64,000 bases of DNA from Herbidospora cretacea (GTDB lineage: Bacteria; Actinomycetota; Actinomycetes; Streptosporangiales; Streptosporangiaceae): positions 186,001-250,000 of the forward strand of contig NZ_BBXG01000004.1 in assembly GCF_001570605.1 (NCBI RefSeq). Direction: 5' to 3'. Position 1 is the stretch's first letter. The number at the start of each line of letters is the position of its first letter. A program made the translations under genes and the position numbers. This document shows positions 57,625 through 64,000 of the stretch, one piece after another. The notes beneath the pieces are model-generated. The model saw only the letters and a program-made list of their open reading frames with translations, made no database searches and had not been told where the DNA came from.

Positions 57625-58209
57625 ATGAGAATCGTGATTTTCGGAGCGGGCGGCCGAGCCGGCCGCCGCATCGTGGCCGAGGCGCGGGCGCGCGGCCACG
57701 AGGTCACCGCCGCCTTCCGGGACGTCGCCGACGTCACCGACGCCGCCTCGGTGGCGTCCCTGGCCGCCGGGCACGACGCGGCCGTCATGGCCGCCTCGCA
57801 GCTCGACCCGGCCTTCTTCCCCCGCGCCGCCGCCGCATTGATCGAGGGCCTGACCGGCGCGGAGACCGGCCGGCTGGTGGTGATCGGGATCGGGACGACG
57901 CTGGAGACGGCCGACGGCGTGCCGCTCTACCTCACGCCCGGCTTCCCCGCCGACGCGCGGGCCTTCACCGAGGGCCATGCCGAGGAGCTGGAGCTGCTGC
58001 GGCGGTCGGACCTCGACTGGGTGGTGCTGGCCCCGCCGCCGGTCTTCCTGCACGACGACCCCGCGACCGGGCGGGTCAGCGCGGGCGGCTCGCGGGTGCC
58101 CGCCGACGAGTCGTTCGGCTACCCCGACCTGGCCGTGGCCGTGCTCGACGAGGTGGAGCAGCCTCGCCACCACGGAGAACTGGTGGCGCTCAGCTGCGAC
58201 CGGCCATGA
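57625..58209 (+). CDS. NAD(P)-binding (NmrA/SDR-a-like) oxidoreductase
   Basis: The 194-residue protein starts with the dinucleotide motif [20 protein letters not shown] and contains [11 protein letters not shown] and [11 protein letters not shown], as in NAD(P)H-binding atypical short-chain dehydrogenases. It may reduce quinones or act as a redox sensor. HxlR regulators often govern such genes. It overlaps the convergent SDR gene by 20 nt. Confidence 0.88.
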
Positions 58210-58957
58210 CGCCGCCGTCCACGTCCCAGACGGCGCCGGTCACCCAGTCGGCCTGGTCGGACAGCAGGAAGGCGACGGTGGCGGCGACGTCGTCCGGGGT
58301 GCCGATGCGGCCGAGCGGGTGGAAGCCGTCGAACCTGTCGAGGACGGCGTCGACCCGCTCCCTCGGGATGAACTCCTCGTAGATCGGGGTCCGGACGAAG
58401 GCCGGTGCCACCGCGTTGACGCGGATCCCGTAGGGCGCGAGTTCCATGGCCAGGTGCTGGGTGAGCGCGTGCAGCCCGGCCTTCGCCATCGAGTAGGCCG
58501 ACGACGGCGTGGCGGCGACCGCCTGCCGCGCCCACATCGAGCCGATGTTCACCACGGCCCCCCGCTCCCCGCGGTCGATCACGTTCTGGACGACCGTCTG
58601 GGTGATCAGGAAGAACGCCCGGTTGAGGATCTGGTAGCGGTCGAAGTCCTCGGGCGTGTGGTCGAGGAAGAGCTTGGGCGCGAAGACGCCGGCGGCGTTC
58701 ACCAGGAGGGTGGCGTCGGCGTGCCACTCCGTCAGGTCGGCGCGGAGCCGGTCGACGGCCTCAAAGTCGGTCAGGTCGGCGGCCAGACCGTGGGTCTTGC
58801 CGTGGACGGCGAGGTCGGCCGCCGCCTGGTCGGCGCGTGACCGGGTCCGGCCGGCGACGACGGCGCTGCCGCCGCCCGCCAGGACGCGCCGCGCGACGGC
58901 GAGGCCGATGCCGCTCGTCCCGCCGATGACGATGACCTTCCTGTTGGTGAAGTCCAT
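58190..58957 (-). CDS. Short-chain dehydrogenase/reductase
   Basis: The 255-residue classical SDR has cofactor motif [24 protein letters not shown], the catalytic Ser ([10 protein letters not shown]) and YSMAK, plus a C-terminal [20 protein letters not shown]. Cofactor preference is not decided by sequence alone. It is downstream of the LysR gene on the same strand by 65 nt and could be a tailoring enzyme for the NRPS product. Confidence 0.92.
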
Positions 58958-59022: not shown

Positions 59023-59895
59023 TCATTTATGGCTGGCGAGTTCTCGGGTCAGCCGGGCGAGCTCGTCGCCGAGCGCCGAGTCGACGCCCCACACCGCCTC
59101 GAAGGAGATCCGCACCTCATGGCCCCCGTCCGTCAGCGGACGGTGGGGCACGCCGGGCGAGCTGAGCTTGGCGAGCGGGATCAGCGCCGCTCCGAGGCCG
59201 AGCGCGGCCCACTGCTCCAGGACGCGGTAACTGGAGACCTCCCCGGGATAGGGCCGCAGCGGCAGGTCGTGGGAGCGGAAGAGCCGCCTGATGAACATCG
59301 TCAGCCCGCACTGCACGGGCACCAGCAGGATCTGCTCCCTGCTCGCCTCGCCGAGCTCGATCGGGGCGCCCGCGCCGCAGCCGACGACGACGACCGTGTC
59401 CGTGTCGACCACGCGGTGCTCGTAGCCGGGCATGGGGGCGACGGCGGGCATCAGGATGACGTCGAGCTCACCGGAGGCCAGGCTCTGCTGGAGATCATGG
59501 ATGAGAGCCTCACGCACCAGCAGGTCGCGGAAACCGGGCCGGCGGCGCACCACGCCGAACGTCCGGGCGACGAGATGGGAACAGAGAGGCGAGAAGCCCA
59601 TGCGGATCTTCGGCTCGCCGGGCTCGGTCAGCCGCTGCGCCTCCGCCGCGACGGACCCCAGCGCCACCAGGGCGCTGTCGATCAGCGGCAGGATCCTGGC
59701 CCCGAAGGCGGTCGGGGTCACGCCCCGCGGCGACCGGTCGAACAGCTTGCCCCCGAGGCGCTCCTCCAGCTTGGCGATCCCGTTGGACAGGGCGGGCTGG
59801 GTGACGCCGTAGGCACGGGCGGCGGCGCTGAACGACTTGGTCTCGGCGACCGCCTGCGCGTAGCGGAGTCCTTCGAGGTTGAGCCGCTCGATCAT
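59023..59895 (-). CDS. LysR-family regulator downstream of the NRPS
   Basis: The 290-residue protein has HTH at about 5-65 (LEGLRYAQAVAETKSFSAAA, RAYGVTQPALSNGIAKLEER) and a LysR effector domain. ATG 59895 is preferred because GGAGG lies 8 nt upstream; GTG 59901 is too close. It begins 24 nt past the NRPS stop on the same strand, so it may be co-transcribed with the NRPS, and it may regulate the SDR gene that follows. Confidence 0.9.
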   Translation of the reverse strand: MIERLNLEGLRYAQAVAETKSFSAAARAYGVTQPALSNGIAKLEERLGGKLFDRSPRGVTPTAFGARILPLIDSALVALGSVAAEAQRLTEPGEPKIRMGFSPLCSHLVARTFGVVRRRPGFRDLLVREALIHDLQQSLASGELDVILMPAVAPMPGYEHRVVDTDTVVVVGCGAGAPIELGEASREQILLVPVQCGLTMFIRRLFRSHDLPLRPYPGEVSSYRVLEQWAALGLGAALIPLAKLSSPGVPHRPLTDGGHEVRISFEAVWGVDSALGDELARLTRELASHK

Positions 59896-59919
59896 GGACA
59901 CGCCTCCACGCTGGGAGTT

Positions 59920-62900
59920 CTACTCCTTCACCCTAACCTTCCCGCCCAGGTGGAGCGGGGCGGCCTCCACGCCCGCCGCCCGCACGGCCTCCCAGTGAGC
60001 GAGGGCCTGGTCCGGCTCCACCAGCCCGTGGACCACAGGGAGATCGATCAGGGACTCCAGGCGGCACGACGCGATGGTCCCCGGCAGCCAGGGCGCGGGC
60101 ACGTCCTCGGCCAGCCGCCGCTCGATCCCCGGAAGCGCCAGCAGACCGCCGCCGACGATCGTCACGTCGTCCCTGGCCAGGGCCTTGGCGACGTCGAAGC
60201 AGTGGGGGAAGGAGTCGTCCACGACGATCGCGCCGGGCCGCAGCCGGTCGACGTCGATCACGACGTCGTGGCCGCTCACCGCCGCCACGATCAGGTCGGC
60301 CTCGTGGACGGCGTCCACGCCGCAGATCTCGGCGTCCGGGTGGAGTCCCTCCAGCCGGGCCGCGCGGTCGCACAGCAGCAGCCGCTCCGGCCGGTCCTCC
60401 ACGGCCAGCAGCAGGCCGAGCGAGGAGCGGCCGATCGACCCCAGCCCGACGAAGGCGACGGTCAGGTCGCGCAACGACCGCCCGGCCAGCGCCGCCCGCA
60501 CGGTCAGCACGACCGAGACGGCGGTGGCGGCGTGGCCGGTGGTGACGGGCACCCGGGTCCGCCTCGCGACGTCGAACCCGTAGCCGGTCAGGGAGGGGAT
60601 CATCCCGGCCAGCGAGACCTTGCGGGCGCCGAGCGTGGCGGCGTACTCGACGGCCTCGGCGGTTCTGGCGGCCAGGTCGGGGGCGGCGGCCAGTTCGTCG
60701 GCGAACAGCGGCAGGCAGACGAAGCCCGAGCGGCCGAGCGGGGTGGTGAGCTCCTCGGCCAGCCGGAAGCGGCCGCTGGGGAACAGCAGAGCGCGCAGGT
60801 CCTCGCGGGGCATCGGGGGAGCTCCCGCGAGGGCGAGCAGATCGCCGGGGGAGGGCAGGTATCCGACCAGGGCGGCGTCCAGGGTCGTCAGTTCGGCGCG
60901 GAGCAGGCGTTCGAGGCGGTCGAAGCCGGCCACGGTCGCGCGGAGGACCACCCGCAGGCCGTCCCGCAGGCCATCGACGGAGGGCCGGACCGCGAGGAAG
61001 GTCTCCGCGCCGACCGGGGCGATCTCCGCGTCGAGGTCCCAGGTCAGGCTCAGTTCGCGGCCCTCCAGCGGGCCGAGCGCGGTGAAGTCGAGGTGGCTGA
61101 AGAAGAACCGCGCCGCCCTGATGTCGGCGACTCCGGCCGTGCGGGCGGCCGTCACCGCGTCGGCCATCGCCCGCAGCTCACCGGAGACGGGCCTGACCGC
61201 GACGGCGCTCGCATAGGGCCCGAAGACCAGGTGGGCGTCCGGCGGTGCGCTGTCCCGGCCGGTCACCGCCACGCCGAGCAGGAGATCGTCCTGTCCGGTG
61301 AAGGCGGCCAGCGCGCGCCGGTAGGCGGCCAGCACAGCCACGAACAAGGTCGTGCCGGCCTCGGCGGCGGCCCGGCGCAGCGCGGTGGCGTCGACGGTGA
61401 AGGCCGCCGAGCGGGCCGGGCCGGGGTCCACCACCGGTCTCCGGTACGCCTCCCGCGCCTGTTCTGCCTGGGGAAGCCGGGCCACGTGATCGCGGAAGGT
61501 GCTGCGCGGGACCGGGAGGTCGATCCCGTCGTAGGCGGCGAGCAGCTCCCGCGCGAGCAGCGCGGCGCTGTAGCCGTCGCCGATCAGATGGTGGGCGTGC
61601 ACGACCAGCACGTGCTCGTCGGGAGCCACCGTGATCAGCCGCAGGCGCAGCAGCGGCCACGCCCACGGCTCGAAGACCCTGGCCCTCTCCTCGGCGATCC
61701 TCCCGGCGGGGTCGGCGGCCTCCTCGAAGACGACGGGCAGCCGCAGCCCGGCCGGGAGCTCCTGCTGCCCGTCCCCGGGGAAGACCGTGCGCAGCATGCC
61801 GTGCCGGGCCACGCAGGCGTCGACGGCGCGCTGGAAGCGCGGGCGGTCGACGTGCCCGCGCACCCGCAGCGTGGCCAGCCACGACTGACCCGCCAGCAGG
61901 AATCCCTTCTGGGCGGGCGTCAGCGGGAACGGGCCGTCGCTCCTGTCGGCCGGGAAGGCCTCGGCGGGTTCCGCGTCGTCGATCGCGCGGGCCAGCGCGG
62001 CCAGGGTGCCGTGCTCGTAGACGACCGTCGGGCGCGGCAGGGTGGCGAACTGCTCGCCGAGCCGGGCGAACACCTGGAGGATCATGATCGAGTCGCCGCC
62101 GAGGGCGAAGAAGTCGTCCTCCCGGCACACCCGGGGCACCTCCAGCAGCGCGCGCCAGACCTCGGCCACCCGCTCCTCGGTCGGGGTCGCGGGTGGCGTC
62201 CCGTGCAGTTCCCGCCGGTCGATCTTGCCCGTGCCGGTCTGCGGGAGCGCGGGCGTGATCGCGATCCGGGCCGGGATCATGTACGCGGGCAGCACCGCCC
62301 CCAGGTGCCCGCGCAGCGCCCCGGGATCGGGGTCGCAGCCGGGGCGCGGCTCGACGAAGGCGCTCAGCCGCTCGCCCGTCAGCACCACGGCGGCCCGCGC
62401 GACCTCCGGGTGGGTGTGGAGCGCCGCCTCGATCTCCCCCGGTTCGACCCGGTGGCCGCGCACCTTGACCTGCGCGTCGATCCGGCCCAGGAAGACCAGG
62501 TCGCCGTCGGCGTCGCGGCGGACGCGGTCGCCGCTGCGGTACCAGCGCACCCCGTCGCGTTCGACGAACCGGCCGGGCTCGTCGAGGTAGCCGGGGGTGA
62601 GGCCGATCCCGGCGATGAGGAGTTCGCCCGACTCGTCCACGTCGACGAACATGCCCGCGACAGGGCGGCCGATGGGGATCGCGGTGACGTCGTCGGCGGG
62701 GCGTTCGTCGATGACGTGGCAGGTCGCGTTGATCGTCGCCTCGGTGGGGCCGTAGAGGTTGGCGATCCGGACGCCGGGGCCGAACAGGTCGTACCAGCGC
62801 CGCACGTGCTCCGGCGGGAGCGCCTCGCCGCCGACGTGGATCCAGCGCAGCCGGTGCTCGAACGGGCCGGCGTCCAGCAGCCGGGACCACAGGCTGGGCA

Positions 62901-64000
62901 CCGAGCTCCAGACCGTCACGTCGCGCAGCCGCCCGGCCAGCAGGCCGGGGTCGCGGACCTCCTCCCGCGTGAACGTCACCACGGTCGCGCCGACCAGCAG
63001 CGGGGCCAGCAGCTGGCGGACCGACGCGTCGAAGCAGATCGACGCCGTCTGGGCCAGGCGGTCGCCCCGCCGGTAGCCGAACGTGCCGATCGCCCAGTCG
63101 AGGTAGTTCTCCACCGCCCGGTAGGTGATCGGCACGCCTTTGGGGCGGCCGGTCGAGCCGGAGGTGAAGATGACGTAGGCGACGCCGTCGCTGGGCGGGG
63201 CGTCGTAGGAGCCCTCGGGGTCGGCGTCGACGTCGGTGACGACGGTGGTCACGCCGCAGCGGGCGAGCTGGTCGCGGCGGCGGGCCTCCGGGTGCGTCGC
63301 GTCGAGCGGGACCCAGCCCGCGCCCGCCCGGACGATGCCGACCAGGCCGACGACCGTGTCGACGCCGGGTTCGGTCATCAGGCCGATCAGGTCGCCCTTG
63401 CCGCGCAGGCGGGCGGCCAGCGCGGCGGAGCGCCGGTCGAGCTCGGCGTAGGTCACCCGGACCGTGCCGGTGTCGACGGCGACCGCGTCGGGGGTGGCGC
63501 GGAACTGCGCGCGCAGCCGGGCCGCCAGGCCTTCCCGTTCCGGGGTCGCGCTGAGTTCGTCCAGGTATTCGGCGGCCAGCCGCCGCACCGTGTCGCGGCG
63601 GAACAGGCGGGCCGGGAAGTTCCAGGTGAACCGCAGCTCACCGCCCGACTCCCAGCAGAGCAGGCTGAGCCTGGTCGCGGCCGACGCCGTTCCGGCGGCG
63701 GTGACGGTGACCTCCACCGGGCAGGCCGGGTCGGTCGCCACCGGGAACCGGGCGAAGCTGAACGACGCCGGGCTCGCCGTGCGGGGACCCTCGGCGGCCG
63801 GCAGCAGGCGGGCCAGGTCGACGCCGGTCGGGGTGGCGTGCCGTTCGGCGTCCCGCCAGGTGTCCCGCAGCCGCGCGGCCAGGTCCTCCAGCGGTTCGCC
63901 GGGACGCACGCCCGTCACCAGCGGGAGGGTGTCGGCCAGCGGGCCCACCAGGCGGTCGACGCCCGGGAGGCGGATCTCGCGGCGGGCCCGCGCGACGTTC
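59920..64000 (-). CDS. Nonribosomal peptide synthetase (partial): C-A-T-C with C-terminal AAR-like Rossmann domain
   Basis: The frame is open to the edge; 1359 codons are visible. Counting from the codon at 63948: end of a condensation domain (1-135), adenylation domain (about 145-580; FTSGSTGRPKG, YGPTEA, GRIDAQVKVRGHR), carrier domain (about 590-660, Ser620 in LGGDS), a full condensation domain (about 670-1020, His786-His787-L-I-G-Asp791-Gly in VHAHHLIGDG), then a 315-residue domain with GLGSIG (1168-1173). The last resembles cyanobacterial acyl-ACP reductase: LVGYLPSPGDLLALAG, VSLAGMIPSLTGYG, TTGHAATAVS, VDDSFPHCFD. No thioesterase or standard reductase follows. By eye the adenylation code is D-A-R-S-H-G-L-I-N-K, not one I recognise. 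Confidence 0.93.
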   Translation of the reverse strand, partial: NVARARREIRLPGVDRLVGPLADTLPLVTGVRPGEPLEDLAARLRDTWRDAERHATPTGVDLARLLPAAEGPRTASPASFSFARFPVATDPACPVEVTVTAAGTASAATRLSLLCWESGGELRFTWNFPARLFRRDTVRRLAAEYLDELSATPEREGLAARLRAQFRATPDAVAVDTGTVRVTYAELDRRSAALAARLRGKGDLIGLMTEPGVDTVVGLVGIVRAGAGWVPLDATHPEARRRDQLARCGVTTVVTDVDADPEGSYDAPPSDGVAYVIFTSGSTGRPKGVPITYRAVENYLDWAIGTFGYRRGDRLAQTASICFDASVRQLLAPLLVGATVVTFTREEVRDPGLLAGRLRDVTVWSSVPSLWSRLLDAGPFEHRLRWIHVGGEALPPEHVRRWYDLFGPGVRIANLYGPTEATINATCHVIDERPADDVTAIPIGRPVAGMFVDVDESGELLIAGIGLTPGYLDEPGRFVERDGVRWYRSGDRVRRDADGDLVFLGRIDAQVKVRGHRVEPGEIEAALHTHPEVARAAVVLTGERLSAFVEPRPGCDPDPGALRGHLGAVLPAYMIPARIAITPALPQTGTGKIDRRELHGTPPATPTEERVAEVWRALLEVPRVCREDDFFALGGDSIMILQVFARLGEQFATLPRPTVVYEHGTLAALARAIDDAEPAEAFPADRSDGPFPLTPAQKGFLLAGQSWLATLRVRGHVDRPRFQRAVDACVARHGMLRTVFPGDGQQELPAGLRLPVVFEEAADPAGRIAEERARVFEPWAWPLLRLRLITVAPDEHVLVVHAHHLIGDGYSAALLARELLAAYDGIDLPVPRSTFRDHVARLPQAEQAREAYRRPVVDPGPARSAAFTVDATALRRAAAEAGTTLFVAVLAAYRRALAAFTGQDDLLLGVAVTGRDSAPPDAHLVFGPYASAVAVRPVSGELRAMADAVTAARTAGVADIRAARFFFSHLDFTALGPLEGRELSLTWDLDAEIAPVGAETFLAVRPSVDGLRDGLRVVLRATVAGFDRLERLLRAELTTLDAALVGYLPSPGDLLALAGAPPMPREDLRALLFPSGRFRLAEELTTPLGRSGFVCLPLFADELAAAPDLAARTAEAVEYAATLGARKVSLAGMIPSLTGYGFDVARRTRVPVTTGHAATAVSVVLTVRAALAGRSLRDLTVAFVGLGSIGRSSLGLLLAVEDRPERLLLCDRAARLEGLHPDAEICGVDAVHEADLIVAAVSGHDVVIDVDRLRPGAIVVDDSFPHCFDVAKALARDDVTIVGGGLLALPGIERRLAEDVPAPWLPGTIASCRLESLIDLPVVHGLVEPDQALAHWEAVRAAGVEAAPLHLGGKVRVKE

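Follow-up and report, generated by a model that had tools for sequence, protein, structure and literature searches.

A predicted cysteine-dependent thioester reductase domain behind a condensation domain in a hybrid PKS/NRPS gene of Herbidospora cretacea

The window analysed here, a stretch of 64,000 nucleotides from Herbidospora cretacea (contig NZ_BBXG01000004.1), carries the 3' part of a hybrid polyketide synthase/nonribosomal peptide synthetase (PKS/NRPS) gene, which ends in a domain assigned here as a putative thioester reductase (TR). The gene probably encodes a self-contained fatty-acid/polyketide/amino-acid line ending in a Cys-dependent thioester reductase of the acyl-ACP reductase (AAR) type, which would release the chain bound to the peptidyl carrier domain (PCP) as an aldehyde. 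This reading is built on the domain order, the kinship of TR, its Cys, its nucleotide-binding loop and its strong conservation, all of which are evident from the sequence.

The domain order of the gene is read as FAAL-ACP-KS-AT-KR-ACP-C1-A-PCP-C2-TR, i.e. fatty acyl-AMP ligase, acyl carrier protein, ketosynthase, acyltransferase, ketoreductase, a further acyl carrier protein, condensation domain, adenylation domain, PCP, a second condensation-type domain and TR. A Pfam scan of the whole protein revealed AMP-binding in two stretches, three carrier stretches, ketosynthase, acyltransferase and KR as well as condensation in three stretches; neither a thioesterase nor a transaminase domain was found in this protein by the same scan.

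The C-terminal domain and its relatives

TR comprises the last 320 residues of the NRPS and lies immediately behind C2. An initial annotation of the window had proposed a nucleotide-binding reductase domain related to AAR and joined to the end of a condensation domain, and phmmer, NCBIfam, profile search and alignments bear this out. All segments named there (GLGSIG, LVGYLPSP, VSLAGMIPSLTGYG, TTGHAATA, VVDDSFPHC and VGGGLLALPG) are present in the translation past the last condensation domain. The domain, about 320 residues after the last C domain, has its limits at 59923-60882 instead of the 59920-60870 given there.

Compared with solved structures by phmmer, TR matched 9e4x (1.9e-30), 9e4s (2.5e-30) and PigE 4ppm (1.6e-9), and nothing beyond these was returned up to E 1. 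Chance is far from accounting for a likeness of this degree. Among the NCBIfam models, PigE (NF053554) was found with 8.7e-14 and 50.8 bits against a cut-off of 850 bits. The comparison with an AAR model, suggested earlier as a check, gave a match far under the curated cut-off (TIGR04058, 3.8e-7, 29.7 of 449.7 bits). A profile built from 14 sequences, relatives of the window's domain, matched 9e4x with 2.8e-88, PigE with 3.1e-18 and Synechococcus elongatus AAR with 1.9e-4 to 6.4e-4. The kinship of TR with AAR is drawn from the passage through PigE, which published work has linked to AAR by sequence and modelling. From the profile likeness over most of its length, TR is assigned as a putative thioester reductase of the AAR/PigE/TamH kind, forming an NRPS-linked branch.

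Pfam returned no family above cut-off for the excised domain. A reductase (R) domain of the short-chain dehydrogenase/reductase (SDR) type was rejected, since no SDR-type Pfam match was found in the C-terminal region; the Epimerase and adh_short matches of the protein belong to KR at 1814-1950. SDR-type R domains of NRPSs release carrier thioesters as aldehydes with NAD(P)H, and their fold family differs from that of TR.

The nearest known counterparts are the entries 9e4x and 9e4s (also 9e50, 9e56 and 9e4u) of the Protein Data Bank (PDB), named 'Amino acid adenylation domain protein', with chains of 399 and 425 residues. They hold the same kind of domain over about 335 residues, with the Cys at the same column and the motifs DDSxPHCF and LCD. 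This set shows that others already know such a domain from a protein of the NRPS type, which is the main limit on novelty. The N-terminal TR domain of PigE and the C-terminal TR domain of TamH, from prodigiosin and tambjamine formation, were proposed to form aldehydes from thioesters by a Cys-based route; AAR-like Cys chemistry is reported or proposed for Cys296 of PigE and the putative Cys887 of TamH. Both are fused to a transaminase and not to NRPS domains, whereas the window protein has no transaminase domain; with 50.8 instead of 850 bits and without a class III transaminase it lies outside the PigE family (NF053554). AAR proper (TIGR04058; S. elongatus structures 6JZQ/6JZU) shares Cys294 and the order of motifs with TR, but differs in the low score given above and at Ala188-Arg189, where TR has Asp and a gap. 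AAR is also free-standing and hands its aldehyde to ADO, whereas TR is fused in an NRPS. A free-standing acyl-ACP reductase within a FAAL/NRPS cluster is described for nocuolin. Besides PMC4599437, considered below, the papers used for comparison were PMC8341465, PMC9594044, PMC7089970, PMC5333925 and PMC6256058. The layout with a condensation-type domain just before TR is not described in the papers found in the open-licence literature. There, no paper was found that names 9E4S/9E4X, nor one that joins NRPS, an AAR-like domain and thioester reductase, absence from this literature being weak evidence.

Catalytic cysteine, nucleotide loop and distribution

According to the initial annotation, the catalytic Cys of AAR, placed there beside M-I-D-G-G-Y, was replaced by Gly/Ala. 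The alignments contradict both points. In the profile alignment the AAR segment QMFACFAEAML stands opposite IASCRLESL of TR; counting along the row, the AAR Cys is residue 294, and it aligns with Cys1295 of the window protein (numbering of the initial annotation). A separate MAFFT alignment of 35 sequences confirms the column, with Cys in 31 and Ser in 3 (L016, L017, L018) of the 34 rows counted, L142 being left out. Across 80 genome loci, the set kept from 130 confirmed relatives among 181 pattern matches, Cys occupies this column in all 79 loci with a residue, and one locus has a gap. Because Cys1295 aligns with AAR Cys294 and is kept in 79/79 loci, the doubt over the Cys falls, and with two alignments in agreement its loss was rejected. 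The other Cys pointed out nearby, Cys1250, is indeed present as the Cys of DDSFPHC, but it is not the AAR catalytic position; its column holds Cys in 72 loci, Ala in 7 and a gap in 1. In AAR, Cys294 is reported to carry the acyl chain, aldehydes are made from acyl thioesters, and the variant C294S was unable to form the thioester.

The four columns checked in the GLGSIG loop (G, G, S, G) are constant in 80/80 loci. The second strand of TR ends in LLLCD, with the Asp aligned to AAR Ala188 and a gap opposite Arg189. This Asp is constant in the 79 loci with a residue and is shared by 9e4x. Where the second strand closes with an Asp, the cofactor is usually NADH. In AAR the phosphate of NADPH is surrounded by Arg189, Arg193 and Arg314, and in the alignment Arg189 is without counterpart in the window's TR. 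Since an Asp ends the second strand where AAR has Ala188-Arg189, NADH is predicted as the cofactor of TR. For the TR domain of TamH, too, NADH dependence has been predicted.

TR is among the best-conserved domains of the protein. Its median identity to the window is 0.64, calculated over 52 loci outside the nearest genera (L035 onward) from 57 near-full-length ones. The corresponding values are 0.68 for KS, 0.65 for A, 0.66 for FAAL (21 loci), 0.57 for both C1 and C2 and 0.34 for the C2-TR linker.

All 7 Herbidospora genomes examined contain the domain. In the Streptosporangiaceae, 19 of 341 genomes match TR at E 0.001; 10 of these 19, the own genome included, do so in frames of 3501-4640 amino acids (aa), and the others are weaker or show a different layout. 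For Streptomyces, some TR match was obtained in 50 of 295 genomes and a frame of at least 3700 aa in 38. An even draw of 396 genomes across the phylum gave 54 matches at E 0.001, with the long frame only in the own genome and three others; the remaining matches are free-standing proteins or weak partial ones. Overall, the 80 named loci come from Herbidospora, Streptomyces, Micromonospora, Actinoplanes, Couchioplanes, Nonomuraea, Microtetraspora, Ornithinimicrobium and Nocardioidaceae. The search for the C-AAR fusion in other genomes, suggested earlier, found C2 directly before TR in 76/80 loci; in the other four, TR lies at the edge of the sequence (L083, L091, L101) or its coding region is divided between two frames (L068). 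Only some of the loci display the full order from FAAL to TR, since the 10-kb flank frequently stops within the gene.

Sister relatives with 33-37% identity occur in four genomes of the same family (G239, G272, G237, G260), sited elsewhere. The gene layout was read for three of them, the fourth being L129. The gene of L126 is C-A-PCP-TR, with all domains but TR confirmed by Pfam, and those of L127 and L128 are A-carrier-TR as far as detected. At all three loci a separate PKS gene adjoins and acyl-CoA dehydrogenase genes are nearby; two of them also have thioesterase and FAAL genes. A FastTree tree places 11 C-TR sequences on one side of a split (support 0.988) and groups 9e4x, a Pantoea protein and the four PCP-TR sequences (support 1.000), so that 9e4x clusters with the PCP-TR and free-standing forms and not with the C-TR clade. 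C2 therefore reads as a feature of the C-TR clade, and in the sister forms TR would act on the carrier domain. Because TR directly follows the carrier in these proteins, a carrier-bound substrate is the natural reading.

Searches of plasmids yielded one Streptomyces copy of the gene and two free-standing relatives. The copy, on a plasmid of Streptomyces fungicidicus, is flanked by a WGR-domain gene and a TerB-family gene, and hydrogenase-maturation genes are found close by. One free-standing relative (L108, 7581-8867), annotated as hypothetical, is part of an NRPS/PKS cluster on a Pantoea plasmid, where it adjoins a luciferase-like monooxygenase and two adenylation-domain proteins. The other, more distant one (L109, 7662-8855) is located on a Streptomyces plasmid a few genes before acyl carrier protein and ketosynthase genes. 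Free-standing AAR-like proteins (frames of 359-458 aa) were also seen at 26 loci of the phylum draw (L134-L159) in small genomes of 0.8-2.8 Mb. They show Cys, and GR at the cofactor position, in 14/14 usable rows (15 aligned), with GATGSIG and ACMAET in most rows.

Proposed release step and its alternatives

In the proposed sequence of events, FAAL would activate a fatty acid; one round of extension with malonyl-CoA and subsequent reduction would give a 3-hydroxyacyl chain, which C1 would attach to a single amino acid bound to the PCP. This acyl-aminoacyl thioester would then move from the PCP to Cys1295 of TR and take up a hydride, with NADH as the predicted donor, so that the product would leave as an aldehyde that may cyclise or react on. 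We infer the hydride chemistry, the cofactor, the aldehyde and the PCP as substrate site from the relatives and motifs described above. An xAFH motif in an acyltransferase indicates the malonyl type, and the single AT of the gene reads as such. A malonyl AT is also given in a published table from 2015 (PMC4599437). The 3-hydroxyacyl chain is predicted from FAAL, KR and this one malonyl-type AT. The simplest predicted product is thus a 3-hydroxyacyl-amino aldehyde, for which spontaneous cyclisation or further reduction is possible. Lipo-amino aldehydes are a reactive, often protease-inhibiting class. If the reading is true, the predicted product shifts from an unspecified release to a lipo-amino aldehyde or a cyclised form of it, and the gene would illustrate the sharing of one release step between a condensation domain and a Cys-type reductase. 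From the earlier suggestion of a new release or tailoring module, the release role is retained as most likely and the newness holds only in part; the ground for the tailoring dehydrogenase, the loss of the Cys, is not supported (79/79 Cys).

Several observations weigh against such a reductive release. Taken by itself, the link to AAR is weak: behind the 1.9e-4 of the profile search unrelated dehydrogenases follow closely, namely erythronate-4-phosphate dehydrogenase (8e-4) and malic enzyme (1.2e-3). With purified PigE the reduction reportedly could not be observed in vitro, nor did TamH yield a product from acyl-CoA, so that activity is difficult to demonstrate for this family. Three of the four sister sequences with PCP-TR (L016, L017, L018) carry Ser instead of the Cys, although they retain the other motifs of the domain. 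Together with the inability of AAR C294S to form the thioester, this suggests that not every domain of the clade need be such a reductase. Finally, for simple reductive release one would not expect PCP and TR to be separated by a condensation domain.

The part played by C2 is the point at which the possible readings diverge. C2 matches tyrocidine synthetase 3 (2jgp, phmmer 8e-22) and is about 50 residues shorter than C1 in a pairwise alignment. Its HHxxxDG motif has H, H, D and G in all 73 loci with letters there (76 aligned), and its median identity equals that of C1. An epimerisation domain was rejected, as HHLIGDGYS is of the condensation kind by the motif rule that separates the two and NCBIfam gave no epimerisation-type model up to E 0.01. 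C2 is conserved and looks catalytically intact, and its most likely role is to act on the chain bound to the PCP, ahead of reduction.

One possible though rather unlikely variant of the reductive release, overlapping with it in likelihood, takes C2 as a structural or gating spacer without chemistry that positions TR or guards the PCP. The reduced length of C2 and the occurrence of TR without C2 in the sister architectures are in line with this idea. In such a spacer HHxxxDG would be expected to drift, yet it is constant, and together with the identity of 0.57 compared to 0.34 in the linker this counts against a decaying spacer. More speculatively, C2 and TR could form one composite release unit, a reading we hold to be unlikely. 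Here C2 would react on the PCP-bound chain or hand it to Cys1295, and TR would reduce it; the reaction of C2 may be, for example, a ring closure or the addition of a second nucleophile within the chain. If this were true, the pair would make a product beyond the reach of a terminal C domain or a reductase domain acting by itself, in a widespread single-gene actinobacterial pathway whose reductase is absent from the one published listing found.

The initial annotation had also offered an alternative in which C2 is itself the release domain, forming an amide, ester or ring, and TR a dehydrogenase or reductase acting on the released product. The intact HHxxxDG, the conservation of C2 at the level of C1 and its position directly before TR in 76/80 loci agree with it. 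We consider it improbable, since the thioester-accepting Cys, which would be dispensable to a dehydrogenase working on a free product, is kept throughout and the sister proteins place TR straight after a carrier domain. Very little likelihood is left for TR as a non-catalytic remnant: the Ser-bearing relatives and three of the 295 Streptomyces genomes with only TR pieces in frames below 200 aa (G800, G834, G1021) would fit, but the Cys, the checked GxGxxG columns and the second-strand Asp are constant in 79 or 80 of the 80 loci, and the identity is about that of the A domain. Membership in another Rossmann family (ornithine cyclodeaminase/SbnB, FolD, saccharopine dehydrogenase or F420 oxidoreductase) is hardly credible and was rejected, because the matches (NCBIfam SbnB 0.0012 and FolD 0.0044; Pfam on the excised domain, Sacchrp_dh 0.013 and F420_oxidored 0.025; F420_oxidored at 22.0 bits against a cut-off of 21.6 in the whole-protein scan, where no single stretch passes) span only part of TR around the nucleotide-binding half, while 9e4x and PigE match more strongly by many orders of magnitude, and in the profile search their matches extend beyond the Cys.

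The gene, its neighbours and further observations

The coordinates of the features are compiled in Table 1.

Table 1. Features of the window around the terminal domain (window positions; Cys numbering of the initial annotation).
Feature	Position	Strand	Basis or remark
Hybrid PKS/NRPS gene, 3' part	59920..64000	-	open reading frame (ORF) of 3716 aa from first GTG; 3534 aa published
Adenylation domain	62206..63573	-	Pfam AMP-binding
Peptidyl carrier domain (GGDS)	61975..62175	-	Pfam PP-binding
Second condensation-type domain C2, short (341 residues as cut; C1 about 390)	60916..61938	-	Pfam Condensation; phmmer; C1 alignment
HHLIGDG (HHxxxDG) motif of C2	61573..61593	-	alignment
C-terminal putative thioester reductase domain (TR), AAR/PigE/TamH kind	59923..60882	-	phmmer, NCBIfam, profile search, alignment
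GLGSIG dinucleotide-binding loop	60430..60447	-	alignment
Cys1250, DDSFPHC; not the AAR catalytic position	60199..60201	-	alignment
Predicted catalytic Cys, Cys1295, TIASCRLES	60064..60066	-	aligned with S. elongatus AAR Cys294
LysR-type regulator gene	59023..59901	-	Pfam; tblastn
SDR oxidoreductase gene	58190..58957	-	Pfam; tblastn

The open frame of the gene runs on the minus strand from the right edge of the window to a stop codon at 59920-59922 (ORF listing), and the ORF reaches past the window end. Komaki et al. (2015) list a gene pks/nrps-1 (s04-orf226, 3534 aa) as CoL/ACP-KS/AT/KR/ACP-C/A/T-C and as conserved in all five type strains (PMC4599437). The gene of the window is very probably this H. 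cretacea pks/nrps-1: the order is the same as far as C2 and the listed gene is on scaffold 4, but the listing stops at C and does not contain TR. From the published length, arithmetic puts the start of the gene at about window position 70524. In the main text of PMC4599437 no word starts with 'reductase', the term occurring only within ketoreductase and enoylreductase. TR, an overlooked domain, passes no curated AAR or PigE cut-off, and the published listing ends the gene at C2.

The GGDS of the PCP is kept in 72/72 loci. The specificity residues of the A domain were read by hand as D-A-R-S-H-G-L-I-N, with the usual numbering of code positions; they fit no adenylation code known to us. The amino acid of pks/nrps-1 was left unpredicted in the 2015 paper, too (PMC4599437). 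With a simple pattern the code was readable in 58 of the 80 loci, of which 42 were identical, 13 had LVN, 2 DARLH and 1 DARSQ; the pattern gave no reading in the other 22.

Downstream of the NRPS gene, the LysR gene follows at 18 bases and the SDR gene at a further 65 bases. Among 81 loci compared, a LysR match and a close copy of the SDR (93%) were found in H. mongoliensis only, which has both beside its NRPS gene; other SDR matches reach 34% or less. Using a simple gene caller, no gene was found that regularly adjoins across 83 genome groups, the only regular upstream match being the FAAL end of the same gene, and the largest other neighbour family occurs in 14 of the 83 groups, downstream only. 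This survey covered the 25 largest families with frames above 1500 aa left out, and upstream DNA from the own genome and 16 others, to varied extent. Neither an annotated product nor regular tailoring genes were found around the gene, and the neighbours vary. The lack of a regular neighbour in the 83 groups suggests that release likely occurs within the protein or by unlinked enzymes. The gene looks like a one-gene pathway, for which an unlinked partner is possible. As it seems to stand alone, cloning of this one gene may suffice as a test.

Some minor deviations were noted in the upstream domains. C1 of the Herbidospora gene, located beyond window position 64000 (seen in L002), has SHxxxDG in place of HHxxxDG. 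The first His is Ser in 6 of 67 loci with letters, and the second His is kept in all 67. The active Ser of the acyltransferase is lost (G-H-S to G-x-G) in 8 of the 57 near-full-length relatives (L079, L087, L092, L097, L100, L102, L103, L105). Seven of them are Micromonospora or Micromonosporaceae KJ-029 and one is Actinoplanes; their aligned AT region falls short of that of the window by 60 to 107 residues, and the malonyl group may be supplied from elsewhere. An open frame of 1657 aa lies antisense to the NRPS gene on the plus strand (59029-63999) and is probably a by-product of the high G+C content at third positions of the real gene.

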